DNA of 37,236 bases from a virus, in the IMG/VR virus record IMGVR_UViG_3300047321_000164, positions 1 through 37,236 of that record; one strand, given 5' to 3'. This document shows positions 3,577 to 23,723 of the stretch, piece after piece. The position numbers were made by a program, and so were the translations under genes. Within the stretch, counting starts at the first letter, position 1. Each line of letters starts with the position of its first letter. The notes under the pieces were generated by a model, which saw only the letters and a program-made list of their open reading frames with translations, did no database searches and was not told where the DNA came from.

Positions 3577-6422
3577 TGGATCTCACAAACCTTTCCGACG
3601 CGCAGCTGGTCGACATCTTGAACGCGGGGCCCAACACGGCACCGGGTGCCGGTTTGCAGGCAGAAACTTCGGCCATTCACCGGAATGAGTCGAGCGGCGC
3701 ATCGGACGCGCGCGCCGACATCGTCAACCCCGCATCGGGTGCGCGCGGCAGCATGCAAATCACGCCGACTGGTGCCGGCAGCTCGGATCCCGGTTTCGGC
3801 GTCAAACCGTCGAACGGAACGCCTCAGGATGATGCGCGTACCGGCCGCGATTACTACGCCGCGATGCGTCAGAAGTATGGCGCACCCGATCTTGCGGCGA
3901 TTGCTTACAACTGGGGGCCGGGCAACACCGACAAGTGGCTGGCCGCCGGCGCTGATCTCTCGAAGCTGCCCGACGAGACGTTGAAATACGCGTTGAAGTT
4001 CAAGCAGCAGCTCGGAGACACTGGATCGCAAAGCGTGCCTGGCGTCACTGACAACCCGATTTTGCCGCCGCAACAAGGCAACGATTCGAATTTTCTAGTC
4101 AAGCTGGGTGCGGGTGCCGGGCAAGGTCTCGGCACCGCGGCGGCTGGCGTCGAGGCGCTGGTGGGCAGGGGCGTGTCTGCGCTTGGCGCAACCGACGCGG
4201 GTAATGCGATCACGGGTGATGCGCGAACTGCTGCTGCTCGCTTTGCACAGCAGGCAGCGGACGTCGGCGCCGGGCCGGATAGTGGATGGGGCACCGCTGG
4301 CCGGATCATCGGCGGCACGGCGCCGATGCTGTTCGCTGGTCCTGAGTTGCTCCCGCAACTCGCAACCGGCGCGGCGTTCGGTGCGACACAAGGCGCGCTC
4401 AACGATACGGGCGTCCTTCCCGGCGCCGTCGAGGGGGCGGGTCTTGGCGCGCTCGGATATGGGGTAGGAAAGGGTATCAGTGCAGCGACGGCTGCCGCGA
4501 CACCCGCTGTAGCGCGCGCATGGAACACGCTGCGCGGTGGCGAGAATGCGGCGGCCGCAGGCATCGGCAAGAGTCTCGGCGGGGATCTTGACAGCACGAT
4601 CGCGGCGCTGCGATCCAATTCTGACGAGTTGATCCCGGGCAGCTTGCCGACGGCGGCCGAAGCGGGGCAAAACACGCAGTTGGTCGGCATCCAACGCCGC
4701 CTGCAGAACACCGAGCAGGGGCAGATTGCGTTCACTGATCGGCAAAACGCAAACAACGCCGCCCGGTGGCAAGCGGCGAATGGAGCGGTCGGCCCGGATC
4801 TCGCGAATGAGGCGGAAGCATTCACCCAACAGCAGGCCGCTCGCATTGCCGCCGGCCAGGGTGAATTGCCGCCGCTGACACAGGCTCAAGCTGACGTCAT
4901 GCAGACGCCGGCCTACGCGCAGGCGATGAAGAATGCAGCAGGGGTTGCGGAGAACCGCGGGAGCGCGGCGTTCGAAAATCAGCAAACTCCGCTTCTGCAA
5001 TCACTCCGCGAGGGGATCGACAACGTTGCCGGAACGCGGGACACGATCGATTCGCTGAAGGCGGCGCGCGGCCAGACAGCTGACGACATGTTCGCCGCCG
5101 CAGACGTATCGGTTCCGACGAACTGGCCGGAATTCACGTCCTTGAATTCGAAGCCTGCATTTCAGGACGCCATGCGCATCGCGCAGACCATGTCGGATAA
5201 CCTCGGCGAGGGTCCGATTGTTCGCACCGAGGCTGACGGCGGTGGCCAATGGGTCTCGGGTCATGGCTTGCTGTATGCAAAGGGCGTGCTCGACGACCAG
5301 ATCAACCGCGCGTTGCAGCAGGAGCAGAACACGCAGGCCCGCGCGCTGATCAACGTGAAGAATCAGCTTGTCGGCTTGATGGATCGGGCGAGCCCCGACT
5401 ATGCGCCGGCTCGCGCGCAGTTCCAGGCAGACTCTGCGCCGATCGACGCGCAGCAGGCATTGCAAACCCGCCTGAATGGAACCGTGGACCCGCTCACCGG
5501 TTCCGTCAGCCCGAACAAGCTACGGCAGACGATCAACAGCGTGGTCGGCGAGCAGATGAAGCCCGGCATTCGCGCGGCCGATCAGGTCACGCCGCAGATG
5601 ATCGATCAGTTGCGCGCGCTCGGCCAGCAGGCGCAGCGCACGCCAACGAACATGGTCGGCCTCGAAGGAGAGGGGCAGGAATATCTTCGGCAGGCGCTGC
5701 AGGACCGCGTGCGGGCGAGCGCTGATTCGCTGATGAAGCGCGAAGCCAATCAGGCATCCGACAACTTCAATCAGTACCTTCGCCAGAACTCGCCGAGCTA
5801 CGACGAATACATGACGCAGGCTGCAAGCACTGGGTCCGATATTCAGTCGCGCCAGCAATTGCAGCAGGCGTTGCAGAAGCTCGGCCTCGGCGCGCACAAC
5901 ACGGCCGGCGATCCGATCATCACGCTCAACGGCGCCAAGAGTCTGCTTGCCGGACAGCAGCCATTGACCGGCGGCGCGCGTGCGTACGCTGACACGCTGA
6001 TCAGCGATCTGACGCGCGCATCAGCAGCTAACAACCCGCTCGGCGCGGCCGGTAGCCAGACCTTTGCGAACGCGCAGCTCGGCGGCGGCCTGCTCGGTCG
6101 ATTCATCAATGGCGGCGCGCGGCAGACCGCGGTTGGTGGCGCGATCGCCGGCGGCGCGCACGGATGGGCGATCGGTCAGGCCGTGCAGTCAGCCGTAGCG
6201 CGTGTCTCGGCAAAGACAGAGAAAGCGGCGATCGATCTGCTGCTGAATCCGAAGAAGCTGGCGAGGGCGCTCGAGGATTTCAAGGGGCAACCTCAAGCGA
6301 AGCAGGTCTTCGTCGACGCACTCAAGCAAAAGGCATCCGGAGCAGGCCGCGCCGGCGTGCGCGCTGTTCAGGCATACGAAGCGAGCCGCACACAGAGAAA
6401 ACAGAGCAACCGGGGCATGTGA
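3576..6422 (+). CDS. internal virion protein with lytic transglycosylase (SLT) domain (948 aa)
   Basis: The start is the ATG overlapping the upstream stop. Residues about 30-125 form an SLT-type lytic transglycosylase: probable catalytic Glu38 in HRNESSG, the GSMQI motif at 58-62 and AYNWGPGN at 110-117. Family members cut the glycan strand of peptidoglycan, here presumably to let DNA cross the wall during entry. Residues 165-330 are Gly/Ala-rich and membrane-prone. The remaining 600 residues are helical and Gln/Ala-rich, ending in a basic tail, as in T7 gp16-like and P22-like ejection proteins. The dispersed palindrome lies at codons 21-26. The domain call is confident; the ejection role is inferred. 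Confidence 0.88.
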   Translation: MDLTNLSDAQLVDILNAGPNTAPGAGLQAETSAIHRNESSGASDARADIVNPASGARGSMQITPTGAGSSDPGFGVKPSNGTPQDDARTGRDYYAAMRQKYGAPDLAAIAYNWGPGNTDKWLAAGADLSKLPDETLKYALKFKQQLGDTGSQSVPGVTDNPILPPQQGNDSNFLVKLGAGAGQGLGTAAAGVEALVGRGVSALGATDAGNAITGDARTAAARFAQQAADVGAGPDSGWGTAGRIIGGTAPMLFAGPELLPQLATGAAFGATQGALNDTGVLPGAVEGAGLGALGYGVGKGISAATAAATPAVARAWNTLRGGENAAAAGIGKSLGGDLDSTIAALRSNSDELIPGSLPTAAEAGQNTQLVGIQRRLQNTEQGQIAFTDRQNANNAARWQAANGAVGPDLANEAEAFTQQQAARIAAGQGELPPLTQAQADVMQTPAYAQAMKNAAGVAENRGSAAFENQQTPLLQSLREGIDNVAGTRDTIDSLKAARGQTADDMFAAADVSVPTNWPEFTSLNSKPAFQDAMRIAQTMSDNLGEGPIVRTEADGGGQWVSGHGLLYAKGVLDDQINRALQQEQNTQARALINVKNQLVGLMDRASPDYAPARAQFQADSAPIDAQQALQTRLNGTVDPLTGSVSPNKLRQTINSVVGEQMKPGIRAADQVTPQMIDQLRALGQQAQRTPTNMVGLEGEGQEYLRQALQDRVRASADSLMKREANQASDNFNQYLRQNSPSYDEYMTQAASTGSDIQSRQQLQQALQKLGLGAHNTAGDPIITLNGAKSLLAGQQPLTGGARAYADTLISDLTRASAANNPLGAAGSQTFANAQLGGGLLGRFINGGARQTAVGGAIAGGAHGWAIGQAVQSAVARVSAKTEKAAIDLLLNPKKLARALEDFKGQPQAKQVFVDALKQKASGAGRAGVRAVQAYEASRTQRKQSNRGM
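3637..3651. repeat. dispersed palindrome copy 1 (CGGCACC-G-GGTGCCG)
   Basis: A 15-bp palindrome with 7-bp arms inside the transglycosylase gene. Four further copies occur at 22723, 25833, 28460 and 36354, all within genes. A weaker form with 5-bp arms (GGCAC-GCC-GTGCC) is at 35544-35556. Confidence 0.6.
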
Positions 6423-6437
6423 TTGGACAACGGACAA

Positions 6438-6920
6438 ATGAACGATGCCGAAGTGAAGGTGCTCGTCGAGCGCATGAACAACTACCTCGATGGGCAAAAG
6501 CGTATCGAAGGGCAGCTTGCAATGCTCGTTCAGATGCAGCTATCCCTCGCTTCTGTTCAAGAGCAGATCAAAGGGCTGGACAACGGCCAACGGCGCCTAT
6601 TCGAAAAATCCGACGAGGTTGACGACGCGATCCAGAAATTGCGCGACAAGGAAATCCAACCGCTTCGCGACGACATGGTTGGTAATCGCCGCGCGCTTCG
6701 GGTCCTAGGGGGTGTCGGCGCAATGGTCGTCGCGGCGGCCGGCGGCTTGTATTCGCAGTGGAAGCCTTGGCAGGCCGATTTCGATGCCGCCAGGCAACGG
6801 CGGGACGAGCAGTTGGCGAAATACCAGTTCGACGTCGGGAATGAACTGCGCAAAGACGACAACCGCCTGACGGTGCTGGAGTTCCGGGCGAACAACGTAG
6901 ACAGCAAGGGGAGCAAGTGA
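6438..6920 (+). CDS. coiled-coil protein with one membrane segment, lysis region (160 aa)
   Basis: Residues 1-80 form a charged coiled coil (heptads such as VKVLVERMNNYLDGQKRIEG). One membrane segment follows near residues 95-112 (VLGGVGAMVVAAAGG), then a charged tail ending near LTVLEFRANN. The gene is directly upstream of the endolysin and overlaps it (TGATG). Size and topology fit a lysis accessory or antiholin-like protein, or a DUF1640-type coiled-coil membrane protein. No spanin signature (no lipobox or Pro-rich tail) is visible. An in-frame TTG at 6423, right after the upstream stop, is an alternative start, since neither has a strong ribosome site. Confidence 0.65.
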   Translation: MNDAEVKVLVERMNNYLDGQKRIEGQLAMLVQMQLSLASVQEQIKGLDNGQRRLFEKSDEVDDAIQKLRDKEIQPLRDDMVGNRRALRVLGGVGAMVVAAAGGLYSQWKPWQADFDAARQRRDEQLAKYQFDVGNELRKDDNRLTVLEFRANNVDSKGSK

Positions 6921-8947: not shown

Positions 8948-9256
8948 ATGCTGACCGTCTATATCGGTGCAACTTTCAACCTCGTTGGTGGGCTGCAGCA
9001 GGATGGCGCACCGGCTGATTTTTCCGGCTGGTCGTTCACGGCCAATCTCTATGATCAGACGGGCAAGACCCTGATTTCTCCGCTCTCTGTCTTGTGGGTC
9101 GACATCACCAAAGGGCTTCTTACCCTGTCGGCAGCGTCGACGGAAAACTGGGCTGCGTGCAAGGCGCGCATCGACTGCAAACTCGTGACCCCTCAAGGCG
9201 AGGTGGTGCTTGGACCGCCGACCTATCTGCGCATTGCGCAATCTCCGCTGAGCTGA
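8948..9256 (+). CDS. small beta-rich fibre-region protein (102 aa)
   Basis: The gene sits between two fibre genes with 2-4 bp gaps. The sequence alternates hydrophobic and polar residues in short strands (MLTVYIGATFNLVGGL, SFTANLYDQTGKTL, KARIDCKLVTPQGE), as in a small Ig-like or baseplate-upper-type domain. It has no catalytic motif or signal peptide. Similar short proteins are common next to tail fibres in betaproteobacterial phages. The role, probably a fibre connector, is inferred from location and predicted fold type. Confidence 0.65.
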   Translation: MLTVYIGATFNLVGGLQQDGAPADFSGWSFTANLYDQTGKTLISPLSVLWVDITKGLLTLSAASTENWAACKARIDCKLVTPQGEVVLGPPTYLRIAQSPLS

Positions 9257-9260
9257 TCAT

Positions 9261-10748
9261 ATGGAACTGTCGCTTGTCCTAACCAACGACTCAGGATCGT
9301 ATCAAACGATACTAGGTCAGTTTCTAGCGGTGAACGTCGCCGATACGATGGCCGATAGAGTAGCGGCGGAAGCGGCCGCGATGACTGCCACGCAGCAAGC
9401 CGGCATTGCCACCACTGAAGCTGGAATTGCTACGACACAGGCAGGTACCGCGACCGCGGCGGCCGGTACCTCGACCGCTCAGGCAGGAATCGCCACCGGC
9501 GCCGCAGCCACTGCGACAACGCAACAAGGTATCGCGACTGGCGCGGCAGCCACGGCCACGACGCAGGCGGCCAATGCTGGCACATCGGCAGCCAATGCAT
9601 TGACGGCTGCCTCCCTTGCTCAGAATTGGGCCTCGCAGGCGAGCGGCACCGTGGACGGCGTCAGCTATTCTGCGAAGTACTACGCGGGTCAGGCGGCCGC
9701 GAGCGCAGCGGCCATTACGCTCCCGCTTCCGATCACGAGCGGCGGTACGGGCTCGACAACGGCCTCGGCGGCCCGTACCGCGCTCGGCACTGTCGCGAAA
9801 GCAGGCGACACATTTACGGGCCCGGTAACGCTCTCGCCGACCTCGGGCGACGGTGTGCTCGCGATTGATTCTGTAGCGGGCAATACGGGCTCTTTGCAGT
9901 TCAAAACGGCGGGCTCCCTACGTTGGGCTTTGCAGCGCAATAACACGACCGAATCAGGCAGCAATGCGGGCTCAAATCTGCTGCTAACCCGCTATACGGA
10001 CGCGGGCGCGTCGATCGACAACCCTATCAGCATTGTCCGATCGACCGGCGTAGTCTCGCTCTCGCAGCGGCCGACATTCGCCGGTAATACCGCGATCGAC
10101 ACCGGCAACATTGCAGCGAACGCGCAAGGCCGATTGATCGGCGTGCAAGTCTTTACGTCGAGCGGCACTTACACGCCGACCGCCGGAACGAGCAGCGTTA
10201 TTGTCGAAATCCAAGGTGGCGGTGGTGGTGGTGGTGGCTCTGTCGCTAACTCGGGGACGAATGTAAGTGCGGCGTCAAGCGGCGCGGCGGGTGGCTATAT
10301 CAAGCATCGTATGACTTCTGGTTTCAGCGGCGCCACTGTGACAATTGGATCAGGTGGAACGGGTGGAACGGGTGCATCTGGCGGATCAGGAGGAAACACC
10401 AGTTTCGGCGCATTGACCGCTGGAGGCGGCAGCCCTGGGGTAACAGGAGCAACGGGCACCAATTCCGTAAGCGGTGGTAGCAGTGGTGGTAGCTCAAGCG
10501 GTGGAAATATCGTCAATGTTCCTGGTGCGCCTGGAAATTGGTCCTTCAGTAATGGCTCTGTTTATCTTTCTGCTACTGGAGCAAATTCTTTATTGGGGTC
10601 CGGGGGTATGTATGGCATCAATACCAACGCTGGAAACGCCAGTGGATTCGGTGCTGGGGGGGGTGGCACGCTTCAAGGGTTCAACCTCCCCGCAGTGAAG
10701 GGCGGCAATGGGTCAGGAGGTATCGTGATCGTCTATGAGATCGCATGA
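9261..10748 (+). CDS. tail fibre with Ala/Thr repeats and polyglycine C-terminal domain (495 aa)
   Basis: Residues 40-110 consist of short Ala/Thr repeats (units such as GIATTEA, GIATTQA, GTATAAA, GIATGAA), a trimerising shaft. The sequence ITSGGTGSTTASAARTALG (residues about 155-175) is the classic tail-fibre repeat motif. A beta domain follows (VQVFTSSGTYTPT), and the last 170 residues are Gly-rich (eight consecutive Gly, then many GGxGG units) ending in GGIVIVYEIA. That end type is known from phage tips built of polyglycine-II helices, which bind host receptors. It probably sets host range. Overlaps the next gene by ATGA. Confidence 0.85.
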   Translation: MELSLVLTNDSGSYQTILGQFLAVNVADTMADRVAAEAAAMTATQQAGIATTEAGIATTQAGTATAAAGTSTAQAGIATGAAATATTQQGIATGAAATATTQAANAGTSAANALTAASLAQNWASQASGTVDGVSYSAKYYAGQAAASAAAITLPLPITSGGTGSTTASAARTALGTVAKAGDTFTGPVTLSPTSGDGVLAIDSVAGNTGSLQFKTAGSLRWALQRNNTTESGSNAGSNLLLTRYTDAGASIDNPISIVRSTGVVSLSQRPTFAGNTAIDTGNIAANAQGRLIGVQVFTSSGTYTPTAGTSSVIVEIQGGGGGGGGSVANSGTNVSAASSGAAGGYIKHRMTSGFSGATVTIGSGGTGGTGASGGSGGNTSFGALTAGGGSPGVTGATGTNSVSGGSSGGSSSGGNIVNVPGAPGNWSFSNGSVYLSATGANSLLGSGGMYGINTNAGNASGFGAGGGGTLQGFNLPAVKGGNGSGGIVIVYEIA

Positions 10749-10982: not shown

Positions 10983-12047
10983 ATGGCAAAGACCTGCAGG
11001 TTCCAATCGATACAGGCGCTGCGCGCGGTGGCTGCACTCGGCGTTGTCGCCTATCACACGAACGGGAACGTTCAGGGAGCCGGCTGGTTACCGCACATCT
11101 TTCACGCGGCGTCGTTGTACGGCGAGATCGGCGTCGACATCTTCTTTGTGATCTCCGGTTTCGTTATTGCAACTGTCACGCATGATTTGCCCGCTGGCCT
11201 AGACTCTGCCCGATCCTTCCTTTCCGCCCGTATCGCCCGCGTCGTTCCGCTGTACTGGGCAATGACCGCGCTGTTCGTGGCGCTCGTGCTGCTGGCTCCA
11301 AACGCGCTCGTGAACATCCCTCTGAGCGCGACCCATACCATCGCCTCGTTCCTGTTCATTCCATCGTTCAATTGGGCCGGGAAGATCGAACCGGATCTGT
11401 ATGTCGGCTGGACCCTCCAGTTCGAAATGTGGTTCTACGTCGTTTTCACGGTGGCTATCTGTTTCGCGCGACGCCGGTTGCTGGCGGTGGGTGCTTTCCT
11501 TGTCGGCACATGTCTTCTGGGATTGCTCCCCGGCGAAGGTGCGATCTTCAAGACATACACGAATCCGCTGGTGCTTGAGTTCGTTTTCGGGTGCGGCCTA
11601 GGATGGTGGTATGCGTCCGGCCGACGAATTCCTGTCGCCGTGGGTATCGCCGCTCTTGTTATTGCGCTCGGCGTTCACGAGTTCGTCAAGCCGGTGCTGA
11701 ACGAAATCAACCGGTTCTGGGTGTTTGGCACGCCAGCACTGGCGCTTGTCATGCTCTGCCTGTCGGTCGAACAGCGTATAAGGTGGGGAAGCATTTCACA
11801 GGCGATCGGCGATTCCTCGTACTCGCTCTATCTGACGCACGTGTTCGCCGTGCCGATTGGGATCAGGATTCTGATGCTGATGGATGGCGGACGCCGTATC
11901 CCCGGCGATCTGGCGTGCGTAGTGGTCGTTCTGATTTGTCTCGCGATCGGGCTCGCCTCATATCGATGGATCGAGCGTCCGCTGAACCGGTCAATCAAGA
12001 ACTGGGTAGGTATCCGGCGCTTGGCCCCGCGCCATAGCCGCACCTGA
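10983..12047 (+). CDS. acyltransferase-3 family membrane protein, probable O-antigen acetylase (354 aa)
   Basis: The N-terminal IQALRAVAALGVVAYHTNG carries the family hallmark (RAVAAL...YH, catalytic-type His), followed by GEIGVDIFFVISGFVIA and FLSARIARVVPLYW. About ten hydrophobic segments span the chain, ending with SYRWIERPLNR, the usual end of this family. Members move acetyl groups onto surface sugars. In a temperate phage, next to the fibre genes, this suggests lysogenic conversion: altering the O-antigen the phage itself binds, thereby excluding related phages. The substrate cannot be told from sequence. Confidence 0.88.
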   Translation: MAKTCRFQSIQALRAVAALGVVAYHTNGNVQGAGWLPHIFHAASLYGEIGVDIFFVISGFVIATVTHDLPAGLDSARSFLSARIARVVPLYWAMTALFVALVLLAPNALVNIPLSATHTIASFLFIPSFNWAGKIEPDLYVGWTLQFEMWFYVVFTVAICFARRRLLAVGAFLVGTCLLGLLPGEGAIFKTYTNPLVLEFVFGCGLGWWYASGRRIPVAVGIAALVIALGVHEFVKPVLNEINRFWVFGTPALALVMLCLSVEQRIRWGSISQAIGDSSYSLYLTHVFAVPIGIRILMLMDGGRRIPGDLACVVVVLICLAIGLASYRWIERPLNRSIKNWVGIRRLAPRHSRT

Positions 12048-20519: not shown

Positions 20520-22053
20520 GAAAATTAACCTTCGGCCGTATCAACTCGCGTCAATCGAGGGCCTGCGTGAGGGCGCGAGGCGTGGCCACCGCGCGCAGGT
20601 TTTAATGGCGCCGACCGGTGCGGGAAAAACCGTGATCGGCGCACAGCTTTCTGACGAAGTGAACAAGAAAGGGCGGCGTGCGGCATTTGTAGTCGACCGC
20701 GTCAACCTCGTCGACCAGACGAGCGCACTATTCGACAAGTACGGTATCCCGCACGGCGTCATCCAGGCAGACCACTGGCGCAAGCATCTGTTTGAGCGCA
20801 TCCAAATCTGCTCAGCGCAGACGATCGAGAAGCGCGGATTCTTTCCCGACCTTGATCTACTGATTGTGGACGAATGCCACGCCACGCGCAGGGCAACCGC
20901 GAACCTGATCAAGAACCGCACGGACTTGCGCGTCATTGGTCTGAGCGCTACGCCGTTCTCGAATGGCTTGGCGGACCTGTACACGAACCTCGTGAACGTG
21001 TGCACGACCAACGAACTTGTTTCCGAGGGTTTCCTCGTGCCACTGCAGACCTACGCGGCGCGGGCAGTTGACATGACGGGCGCGAAGATCGTTGCCGGCG
21101 AGTGGACCGACAAGGAAGCTGAAAAGCGCGGCATGGAGATCGTTGGCGACGTCGTTCAGGAGTGGATCGACAAGACAATGCTGCACTTCGGCGGCCCGGT
21201 TAAAACGATCGTCTTCAGCGCGACGGTCGATCACGGCGAGGAACTCTGCCGCCAGTTCAATGAACACGGCTACAACTTCCAGCAGATCAGCTATCGGGAT
21301 GGCAGTGATGAGGTCCGGCGTGAACTGATCGAGGAATTCCGCAAGCCCGACAGCACGATTACCGGCCTGGTGTCTTGCGAGGTTTTCACGAAGGGTTTCG
21401 ACGTGCCGGACATTCTGTGTGGTGTCGGCGCGCGCCCGTATCGCAAGAGCCTTTCGAGCCACATCCAGCAGCTCGGCCGCGTGATGCGCACATCGCCAGG
21501 CAAGACGTTTGGCCTGTGGCTCGACCACTGCGGCAACGTCCTGCGCTTCGGCGAGGACGCGGCACGGATCTTTGCCGAAGGACTGCACAAGCTTGACGAC
21601 GGCGCACTCGACGCGAAGACACGCTCGGAGCCAACCGAGAAGGAAAGGAAAGAAATCACATGCTCATGTGGTTTTGTACTGCCTCCAGCGTGCAAGGCGT
21701 GTCCCGCGTGCGGCAAGGAGCGTGAACGTCGATCGCTCGTCGAGAACATCGCTGGCGTGATGGAGGCAGTGGGCGACCATAAGGCGCCGGTAGCGACCGT
21801 TCCGGAGTATCTGCGTGACAAGACATCCGTTTGGCGACAGCTTTGCTGCCTTGCGATTGAACGTAAGCCGCAAGATCCGGAGAAGGCGAAGAAGTTTGCT
21901 TTGGCGCAATTCCACAATCTGTATGGTCACTGGCCTCAGCACGACTTTTCGACATCGAACCTCGAGTCTCCGACCGTGCAATTGAAAGGCAAGGTGCAAT
22001 CGTTGCTGATTCGTCGCGCGCACCAGGTGGGGAGGGCGAATGCAGTTCGCTGA
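20512..22053 (+). CDS. SF2 DEAD/DEAH-type helicase with C-terminal zinc finger (513 aa)
   Basis: Motif I APTGAGKT (33-40), motif II DECH (120-123), motif III SATPF (145-149) and motif VI QLGRVMRT (near residue 320) are all present. This is the UvsW/ResIII-like branch of superfamily 2. Near residue 385 a Cys cluster (CSCGF..., ACKACPACGKE) makes a zinc ribbon, followed by a helical C-terminal domain. It unwinds or remodels DNA and, before a primase, serves phage replication. The ATG at 20512 is chosen because it overlaps the upstream stop. Confidence 0.93.
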   Translation: MAEKINLRPYQLASIEGLREGARRGHRAQVLMAPTGAGKTVIGAQLSDEVNKKGRRAAFVVDRVNLVDQTSALFDKYGIPHGVIQADHWRKHLFERIQICSAQTIEKRGFFPDLDLLIVDECHATRRATANLIKNRTDLRVIGLSATPFSNGLADLYTNLVNVCTTNELVSEGFLVPLQTYAARAVDMTGAKIVAGEWTDKEAEKRGMEIVGDVVQEWIDKTMLHFGGPVKTIVFSATVDHGEELCRQFNEHGYNFQQISYRDGSDEVRRELIEEFRKPDSTITGLVSCEVFTKGFDVPDILCGVGARPYRKSLSSHIQQLGRVMRTSPGKTFGLWLDHCGNVLRFGEDAARIFAEGLHKLDDGALDAKTRSEPTEKERKEITCSCGFVLPPACKACPACGKERERRSLVENIAGVMEAVGDHKAPVATVPEYLRDKTSVWRQLCCLAIERKPQDPEKAKKFALAQFHNLYGHWPQHDFSTSNLESPTVQLKGKVQSLLIRRAHQVGRANAVR

Positions 22054-22870
22054 TTTCGCCGCGGCACATGGCCTGATTATTCGCTCGCTGAACGACGATG
22101 GCCGTACGCATCGGGTGCCGACAGAGGATCACCCGAAGAAGCGCAACGGCGCATACATGTTCGATGGCCATTCTGGCTGGGTGCAGAACTGGGCCGTTCA
22201 CGAGAAGGCGATTGCGTGGCGGCACGGCGGAGATGGTGGCGTTCCAAACGCGCCCCCCAAGCGTGACATGCAGGCGGCACGGCGGCGCGAGGCAGAAGAA
22301 CGGGCGGCGGCAGCCGCAGCCGCCCAGCAGGTCATCGCTCGCTGCAGCTATGACACTCACCCTTATCTGGCGAAGAAGGGGTTCCCCGATCAGCGCGGCC
22401 TTATCGATAACGATGGACGTCTCGTGATTCCAATGAGGAACATGCGCGACTACCAGCGCGTGACCAGCCTCCAGTGGATCCCTGAATCTGGAAAAAAACT
22501 GTTCCTCAAGAATGGCGAGGCTAGCGGTGCTGGATTCTCAATCGGCGTTGGTCGTGAATCATGGATCGTCGAGGGATACGCGACTGGTTTAAGTGTTCGG
22601 TCGGCGCTCGAGAAAATGCATCGCCAGGCGCGTGTGATCGTTTGCTTTTCTGCAGGGAATATACCGAAAGTCGCAGAGATGGTCGGCGGACGTCGGTTCG
22701 TGATGGCGGATAACGATCAAAGCGGCACCGGGTGCCGGGTTGCGACAGCGACCGGATTGCCGTGGACGATGCCGCCTGTTGTTGGAGAGGATGCCAACGA
22801 CTTCCATATGCGAGAGGGAATTCACGCTCTCATTGTGCTGATGCGGGAGTTATTTCGGAACACGAAATGA
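22040..22870 (+). CDS. TOPRIM-domain DNA primase (276 aa)
   Basis: Residues 170-255 form a TOPRIM domain: WIVEGYATGLS with Glu178, VMADNDQSGTG with Asp224 and Asp226, and EDANDFH near 250, as in plasmid- and phage-type primases. The N-terminal 60 residues (GWVQNWAVHEK) match the leader region of these proteins, but no Cys zinc finger is visible, so it is a compact form. It synthesises primers for the phage replisome together with the SF2 helicase. Overlaps the helicase end by 14 bases. One copy of the dispersed palindrome lies over its ADND motif region. Confidence 0.9.
   Translation: MQFADFAAAHGLIIRSLNDDGRTHRVPTEDHPKKRNGAYMFDGHSGWVQNWAVHEKAIAWRHGGDGGVPNAPPKRDMQAARRREAEERAAAAAAAQQVIARCSYDTHPYLAKKGFPDQRGLIDNDGRLVIPMRNMRDYQRVTSLQWIPESGKKLFLKNGEASGAGFSIGVGRESWIVEGYATGLSVRSALEKMHRQARVIVCFSAGNIPKVAEMVGGRRFVMADNDQSGTGCRVATATGLPWTMPPVVGEDANDFHMREGIHALIVLMRELFRNTK
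22723..22737. repeat. dispersed palindrome copy 2
   Basis: CGGCACC-G-GGTGCCG in the primase gene, read in a different codon frame from copies 1, 3 and 4, so a conserved peptide does not explain it. Confidence 0.6.
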
Positions 22871-22951
22871 AATATGGTTGCCGCCTGAGTGGTGAACATT
22901 TATTGTTTTCCCATCAGTACGGCATTGCTGATATAGCGAAATCACAGTGAT

Positions 22952-23070
22952 AACCCCGGTATTTTTTAGTCGGGCTTGGAAGTGGAAAGGAGTTTGGGTG
23001 CTGTGACCCTCGCGACTCCTTTCCACGGCATGCCAGCCGCAAGCCCGACTAAAGCGTATCGGGGTTTTTT
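22952..23070 (+). terminator. three-tier nested stem-loop ending in T6
   Basis: Outer arms 22952-22961 with 23057-23066 (10 bp, one G-U), middle arms 22965-22978 with 23040-23053 (14 bp, perfect), inner arms 22982-22993 with 23015-23026 (12 bp, perfect), plus GGGT/ACCC in the loop. Six T's (23065-23070) follow, so it can act as a rho-independent terminator for the replication operon. The stem is far longer than termination needs. Confidence 0.6.
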
Positions 23071-23297
23071 ATTGCCGGCCGCGAATAGACGTAGCGGGAT
23101 AGAAGAAAAGTCGACGGGGGGCCATAACCCAGCCCTAGCGGAACAAAGGTTCGCCGTAACTGGCGAGCTTGGCGTAGCGCCTACCGCGATAAACGAGATT
23201 AGTGGGCTGCGAAAGCAAAGAAGGCCCAGCGTAGATGGAATGGCTGAACGCACTAGGGCGCAGCAGTCTACGTTTTCAGGAATAAACCCGCCGCTAC
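22952..23297 (+). ncRNA. candidate structured phage RNA in the gap after the primase
   Basis: The 22871-23498 gap (628 bases) has no convincing gene. Beyond the nested stem at its start there are: TGC-GAAA-GCA with a GNRA loop (about 23207-23216) inside TGGGC/GCCCA arms; AGCGTAGA (23228-23235) with TCTACGTT (23267-23274) enclosing GCTG-CGC/GCG-CAGC; 7-bp GTAGCGG (23091-23097) with CCGCTAC (23291-23297); and GCCCTAG (23132-23138) with CTAGGGC (23253-23259), the latter in a hairpin loop, which would make a pseudoknot. Both G-U pairs and the GNRA loop fit transcription of the plus strand. No known RNA class is recognised. Confidence 0.45.
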
Positions 23298-23498
23298 CGT
23301 ATTCCAGATTTTTCGGGATGCGCATACGGGTGTGGTTGAGATCATATGAAAGTGGTCAGGCAGTCGCGGTAGAGAAAACCTGTTCAGCGCTATGGCTCTA
23401 GCAAATGCGAACTGGAACCTGTGCGAGAAAAAACGATTTCCGTGCAACCCAACAAAAGCAAACCCCCTAACCCCTCAGAAATGGGAATTGGAGAACTG

Positions 23499-23723
23499 AT
23501 GGACAACCAGCATAAGCAGATCAAGGGCTATCGCGACCTGTCGCCGGAAGAGATTTCGTCGATGAATGTGATCAAAGATTTTGCGGAGAACCTGCGCGTC
23601 GAACTGGAAGCGCTTGAGACTCTGCCGGGCGTCGACAAGCGCTGGCTTGCGATCGGCAAGACGGAGTTGCAGGTAGGTTTTATGGCGGTCATCCGGTCGA
23701 TCGCGCAACCGACGACGTTTTAA
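23499..23723 (+). CDS. acb2: Acb2-type anti-CBASS cyclic nucleotide sponge (74 aa)
   Basis: The ATG at 23499 is preferred (GGAG 5 bases upstream) over upstream GTG/ATG codons. The whole chain fits the Acb2 (Vs.4-like) family: [26 protein letters not shown], then [19 protein letters not shown] and SIAQPTTF. With this start, Tyr11 and Lys26 fall at the positions reported for ligand contact in Acb2. The family forms a hexamer that sequesters cyclic di- and trinucleotides, stopping CBASS (and similar) effectors. It lies in an accessory stretch just after the noncoding region. Family call strong; ligand range not shown. Confidence 0.85.

Follow-up and report, generated by a model that had tools for sequence, protein, structure and literature searches.

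Comparative analysis points to a new family of structured noncoding RNA in phages and prophages

Results

Genetic context of the gap

The window, by which we mean the whole stretch of DNA that was analysed, is an entire IMG/VR virus record of 37,236 bases. It carries genes for an SU10-type portal, terminases, an S24 repressor, a DNA helicase and a TOPRIM primase, and its 37 kb hold 0 tRNA genes; beside the tail genes, an ORF at 10983-12047 resembles in sequence an O-antigen-modifying membrane acyltransferase. The gap studied here is bounded by two plus-strand genes: the TOPRIM/DNA primase gene upstream (22040-22870; phrog_2249, 2.1e-36; PF13362) and, downstream, the gene of a 74-residue Acb2/Tad1 hairpin-domain protein (23499-23723; PF24729, 3.6e-15). 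Proteins of the Acb2/Tad1 type are cyclic-nucleotide sponges that block CBASS or Thoeris immunity, and the product of this gene, directly downstream of the new RNA, is a candidate anti-CBASS/anti-Thoeris sponge.

The initial annotation had placed a gap with no convincing gene inside it between the replication and packaging modules; its limits and its emptiness are confirmed, with the helicase and the TOPRIM primase on one side and the terminase genes on the other. A protein gene in the gap was rejected: the indels that separate the window from its relative L006 measure 1, 2, 5 and 8 nt, almost every frame contains stops when the members of the RNA family are compared, and the frames through the region are not conserved.

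A structured RNA extending from 22952 to 23297 had also been proposed. Such an RNA is present, but those coordinates merge two elements. The first is a nested three-stem hairpin with a T-run (22952-23070, plus strand), whose stems, joining 22952-22978 to 23040-23070 and including an inner pair, have a minimum free energy of -73.1 kcal/mol (z -8.7; 0/200 shuffles). The three nested stems of the earlier reading are thus real and far above chance, but they lie outside the RNA, being missing in L008 and others. The hairpin, kept in L002 and L006, terminates in the T-run TTTTTTATT, and the 3' end of the element (24 nt, 96% identity) recurs downstream of a tRNA gene in a genome of the Burkholderiaceae. 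In L008, which is devoid of the nested hairpin, the RNA begins directly after the primase. This absence, the stable hairpin, the T-run and the 3' end common to a tRNA-gene terminator lead us to regard 22952-23070 as probably the intrinsic terminator of the replication operon, distinct from the RNA. Upstream of the terminator, 22913-22930 forms an imperfect palindrome, TCAGTACGGCATTGCTGA, whose counterpart in L006 (TCAGCA-CGGCAA-TGCTGA) is a better one; it is possibly an operator.

A conserved plus-strand RNA family

The second element, at 23077-23337, is shown by comparison with its homologues to encode a conserved, folded plus-strand noncoding RNA whose family has no entry in Rfam 15. The window RNA is predicted to measure about 260 nt, members of the family about 180-270 nt, and its layout reads P0-PK0-P1-P2-AUAAACG-P3 domain-AUAAACC-P5-3' tail. 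The folding energy of 23077-23345 is ordinary (z -0.29), so that the case for the RNA rests on comparison. A covariance model, R1, built from 13 seed sequences that exclude the window, finds 23117-23205 out of sample with 42 bits and an E value of 5.9e-9, and also finds L006, L081, L082, L139 and L086, all outside the seed. We count the window copy as a member on this match together with its P1, its P2, its two AUAAAC junctions and its 3' GGGUG tail. The covariation by which the initial annotation had wanted its structured RNA to be judged is strong in P0, P1, P2, P3, the 23230-23272 hairpin and PK0, and the structured noncoding RNA that it had proposed in the gap is supported as a covarying plus-strand RNA conserved in relatives. 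That the helices arise by chance folding of a GC-rich gap, a reading to which the energy z of only -0.29 might lend itself, is refuted by this covariation of many helices and by the out-of-sample match at 6e-9, and we give it practically no weight.

The Rfam scan that had likewise been suggested was run and matched no known family: among the 4227 families of Rfam 15, including GOLLD, ROOL, C4, pRNA and Betaproteobacteria-1, none gave a gathering-level match in the window or the members, the window had no match at all, and within the window RNA there was none at E values up to 10. The literature yielded no name for the RNA; a 2017 survey of 224 RNA motifs lay outside that search and an earlier description is possible. 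Phages that carry structured RNAs are already known, and what we rate as new is the RNA class itself.

Helices, junctions and pseudoknots

Common to every member are P1, a G-run pairing with GCCC around the loop CAUAACCCA or a close variant; P2, which closes right before AUAAACG; a P3 domain that closes shortly before AUAAACC (AUAUACC in one subfamily); and a variable 3' hairpin followed by a CGGGUG-like tail. Members of the Burkholderia type, the window among them, have in addition a 5' hairpin, P0 (23079-23097, CCGC/GCGG), with its own pseudoknot. The four core pairs of P0 form in 16/16 rows with compensatory changes, such as GUCGC/GCGAC in L162. P1 (23119-23135), in which GGGC and GCCC enclose the conserved loop, has pairs changed on both sides in L165, gains one more pair in L081b, L162 and L163, and is predicted alone in L142, L281 and L288; P0 and P1 together have 4 pairs changed on both sides.

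P2 (23136-23188) is closed by the pair U23136-G23188, pairs GCGG (23138-23141) with CCGC (23184-23187) and contains inner hairpins at 23151-23166 and 23171-23181. In the A3 alignment of 13 sequences, 87.6% of cells are paired as against 73.7% after shuffling, 7 of the 8 P2 pairs are changed on both sides, and sliding the partners makes the signal collapse. With the arms taken at fixed offsets from conserved anchors, allowing one bulged A in P2a and one shift in P3, P2a formed 105 of 125 pairs (maximum 91 among 10000 shuffles) and P3 formed in 18 of 25 sequences (at most 14 in 10000 shuffles), the fixed rule for P3 failing in the other 7, window included. The closing U-G pair of P2, present in 9 of the 13 seed members, would become A-C on the opposite strand, and it is on this pair that the plus strand was assigned.

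The junction motif AUAAACG (23189-23195), whose AUAAAC is invariant in the seed, leads into the P3 domain. Its P3b hairpin (23202-23228), recognised in the sequence, is a local variant: the GNRA-capped hairpin reported earlier, GCGAAAGC (23209-23216), is there, but relatives do not retain its GNRA loop and hold different hairpins at this position. The bulged two-part hairpin P3d (23230-23272), by comparison, survives as first drawn, with 97.9% of its cells paired against 81.5% when shuffled and 8 doubly changed pairs. After the second junction motif, AUAAACC (23282-23288), come the P5 hairpin, a putative pairing of CCGUAU with AUACGG, and the conserved 3' tail CGGGUGUGGUU (together 23297-23337).

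The initial annotation gave no coordinates for its loop-to-upstream pseudoknot; two others belong to the predicted fold. PK0 (23088-23112) joins GAC in the P0 loop (23088-23090) to GUC (23110-23112); it is perfectly Watson-Crick in 12 of 14 members and formed in all 14 counting G-U, was equalled in 0 of 10000 shuffles, and appears as GAC/GUC, GGC/GCC, GCC/GGC, GGU/ACC and ACC/GGU. PK1 (23127-23331) would join ACCC in the P1 loop (23127-23130) to GGGU in the 3' tail (23328-23331). It reads ACCC/GGGU in most members, CACCCA/UGGGUG in L281 and CACUCA/UGAGUG in L288, and this compensatory change in one divergent member, with flanking changes in others, supports the pairing, less strongly than P2 or P3 are supported. 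UGWGGUU, also in the tail, was considered first as the partner of the P1 loop and then dropped, as L281 and L288 favour GGGUG/GAGUG. The 7-bp pairing of 23091-23097 with 23291-23297 in the initial annotation did not hold up: it is a literal match, but 13 members gave 68 against 68.9 shuffled, and a supported local hairpin, 23079-23097, competes with it.

Relatives and distribution

Relatives identified through the primase match the window at 95.5% across the entire gap (L002 and L003) or at 86% over 22877-23195 (L006) and 23074-23136 (L008). A search of viral contigs for the shared core GGGGGCCAUAACCCAGCCC brought out a much wider family, many of whose members were recovered by an independent 3' pattern, and patterns taken from the newly found members added about 34 further contigs, mostly isolate prophages. 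About 60 distinct sequences now make up the family. They come from phage contigs, from prophages and from a single named phage record, MW202825, in which the RNA is unannotated and which was the sole match by BLAST against named phages. A sample of 399 Burkholderiaceae species gave a convincing copy in 8 genomes, and samples at order, class and phylum level under stricter filters gave no other; the genome matches L166, L167 and L177 were judged false on inspection. Many more members lie in freshwater phage contigs, and one contig (L081) has two diverged copies of the RNA, at 9111-9321 and 11149-11330, about 2 kb apart.

Transcription signals

In L142 a promoter-like TTGACA-16-TATGAT ends at 1439, 9 nt before the G-run, the RNA running from 1449; sigma70-like -10/-35 boxes were seen by eye 6-11 nt upstream of the RNA in L108 (TTGAAT-17-TACACT), L113, L281 and L288, L108 not being listed by a strict promoter scanner. 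A promoter for the RNA was looked for in the window and none was found, from which we infer that the RNA would there come from read-through of the replication operon or from processing of its transcript.

These signals bear on two other readings. A DNA element, that is, an origin, packaging or recombination site folding as a single strand, would agree with the intergenic position and the inverted repeats, but the G-U pairs are kept on the plus strand only, the promoter is placed at the 5' end and the sequence and length of the loops vary widely, which leaves this reading highly improbable. A self-cleaving or self-processing ribozyme, freeing itself or trimming the transcript, would suit the compact double-pseudoknot layout, the invariant unpaired motifs and the embedding of the RNA, in L008 and the window, in operons with no evident promoter; against it, no Rfam ribozyme family matches, no defined conserved cleavage site was identified and, in some members, the 5' end of the RNA has a promoter to itself; we hold this reading to be quite improbable.

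A variable slot beside terminase and replication genes

In phages of the window type the RNA lies between the helicase/primase and terminase genes, and in freshwater phages the large terminase occupies one flank and, in some, a replication initiator the other; its strand relative to the neighbours varies and no neighbour gene is conserved. That phages unrelated to each other have it between their replication and packaging modules, and that DnaA boxes lie 200-300 nt downstream in L108, L115 and L137, could indicate a core replication or packaging RNA, either associated with the origin or part of the terminase motor in the manner of a pRNA. Among 80 contigs whose terminases are 82-100% identical to that of L109, however, the RNA was found in 5, a rough lower bound since the contigs are often short-flanked fragments and R1 may miss divergent copies. 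A terminase 99% identical occurs without the RNA in that slot, which in this contig (L212) holds an N6/N4 DNA methylase; carriers differ in terminase family, and most members have no nearby DnaA boxes. A core role is on this evidence improbable. An essential packaging RNA was rejected on its absence from most close terminase relatives, and an origin RNA on the restriction of the DnaA boxes to three closely related contigs and on a GC skew that does not clearly turn at the RNA. Just after the large terminase in L211/L214 and L213, a promoter-like TTGACA...TAGTGT precedes a short nested hairpin ending in T-runs; this element, possibly a separate small RNA, occurs with and without the new RNA.

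In three relatives the same slot, after a homologous primase, holds the Rfam Betaproteobacteria-1 RNA (RF02932; L004 5844-5967, L005 2326-2449, L009 5856-5979), which suggests that the two RNAs can stand in for each other. In L007 the slot is filled by GC-rich noncoding DNA, about 500 nt long (6034-6530), that belongs to neither family and of which 6040-6185 folds unremarkably as a single sequence. Neighbours linked to defence are Acb2 in the window, a weak Acb2/Tad1 match in L006 and annotated DNA methylases in MW202825; many members adjoin genes with no known function.

On a cis-acting reading, the RNA would serve the genes just downstream as a leader, attenuator or antitermination element. 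Folding while the transcript is still being made, it would govern whether transcription continues into the late genes, and the contest between P5 and PK1 over the GGGU that both use could be a switch. In Burkholderia-type phages the RNA is indeed co-directional with the replication and late genes and lies 20-180 nt before a small gene, and in one clade of Burkholderia prophages (L169, L170, L171, L183, L187, L190, L202 and L203) a conserved protein of 59-60 residues that ends in ..APVH and has no Pfam match (9545-9724 in L169) is often encoded 34-56 nt downstream. On the other side, the genes downstream are of many unrelated kinds, and in L108, L113, L135 and L142 the RNA and its flanking genes lie on opposite strands, which leaves it nothing downstream to control; we consider control in cis unlikely. 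The promoter of its own in several phages, the occurrence on either strand, the lack of a fixed neighbour and the swapped slot lead us to infer strongly that the RNA would be a free-standing, trans-acting accessory gene, an 'RNA moron'.

Discussion

Homo-oligomeric nanocages are a trait of GOLLD and ROOL, the large phage RNAs that the initial annotation had cited while not recognising its own. Both are structured, pseudoknotted RNAs of phages and prophages, of unknown function and with no fixed neighbour gene (PMC12286853). The new RNA is likewise structured, pseudoknotted, phage- or prophage-borne and not bound to a single neighbour gene, but it is smaller, about 180-270 nt against several hundred; GOLLD and ROOL lie near tRNA islands whereas the window has no tRNA gene, and their covariance models match neither the window nor the members, which makes the new RNA unrelated by sequence model. 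The Betaproteobacteria-1 RNA shares the slot, but its model misses the window RNA and its sequence and structure differ; it is possibly a functional stand-in. The C4 antisense RNA (RF01695) is also a phage RNA with several stems, but its model misses the new RNA and matches only a separate locus, 17454-17544 of L169, a prophage that also carries the new RNA. The phi29 pRNA, another small phage RNA, also uses short pairings between distant loops, but the phage pRNA model (RF00044) gives no match, the phages with the new RNA have ordinary terminases, and in them the RNA is optional.

The explanation that we favour, with a rough probability of 0.6, combines a plus-strand noncoding RNA, its status as a trans-acting accessory gene and a guess at a scaffold. 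The RNA would fold into a compact scaffold, the scaffold would bind a host or defence protein, and the bound scaffold would help the phage to take over the host or to evade its defences. The guess at counter-defence or takeover comes from the slot, which Acb2, DNA methylases and a further orphan RNA also use, and a protein-binding scaffold of this kind, suggested by association with a few slot neighbours, is put forward tentatively. More doubtful still is a mobile factor for counter-defence or takeover made of RNA only, which would be autonomous, shuffle in the manner of a moron and act as a protein-binding scaffold.

As a new class of structured RNA, the family is diverse enough for its fold to be defined, and the lineages with and without it are numerous enough for clean comparisons. 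It appears as optional cargo in a slot shared with anti-restriction and anti-CBASS genes and with another orphan RNA family, and this shared optional slot would make the role of orphan phage RNAs directly testable.
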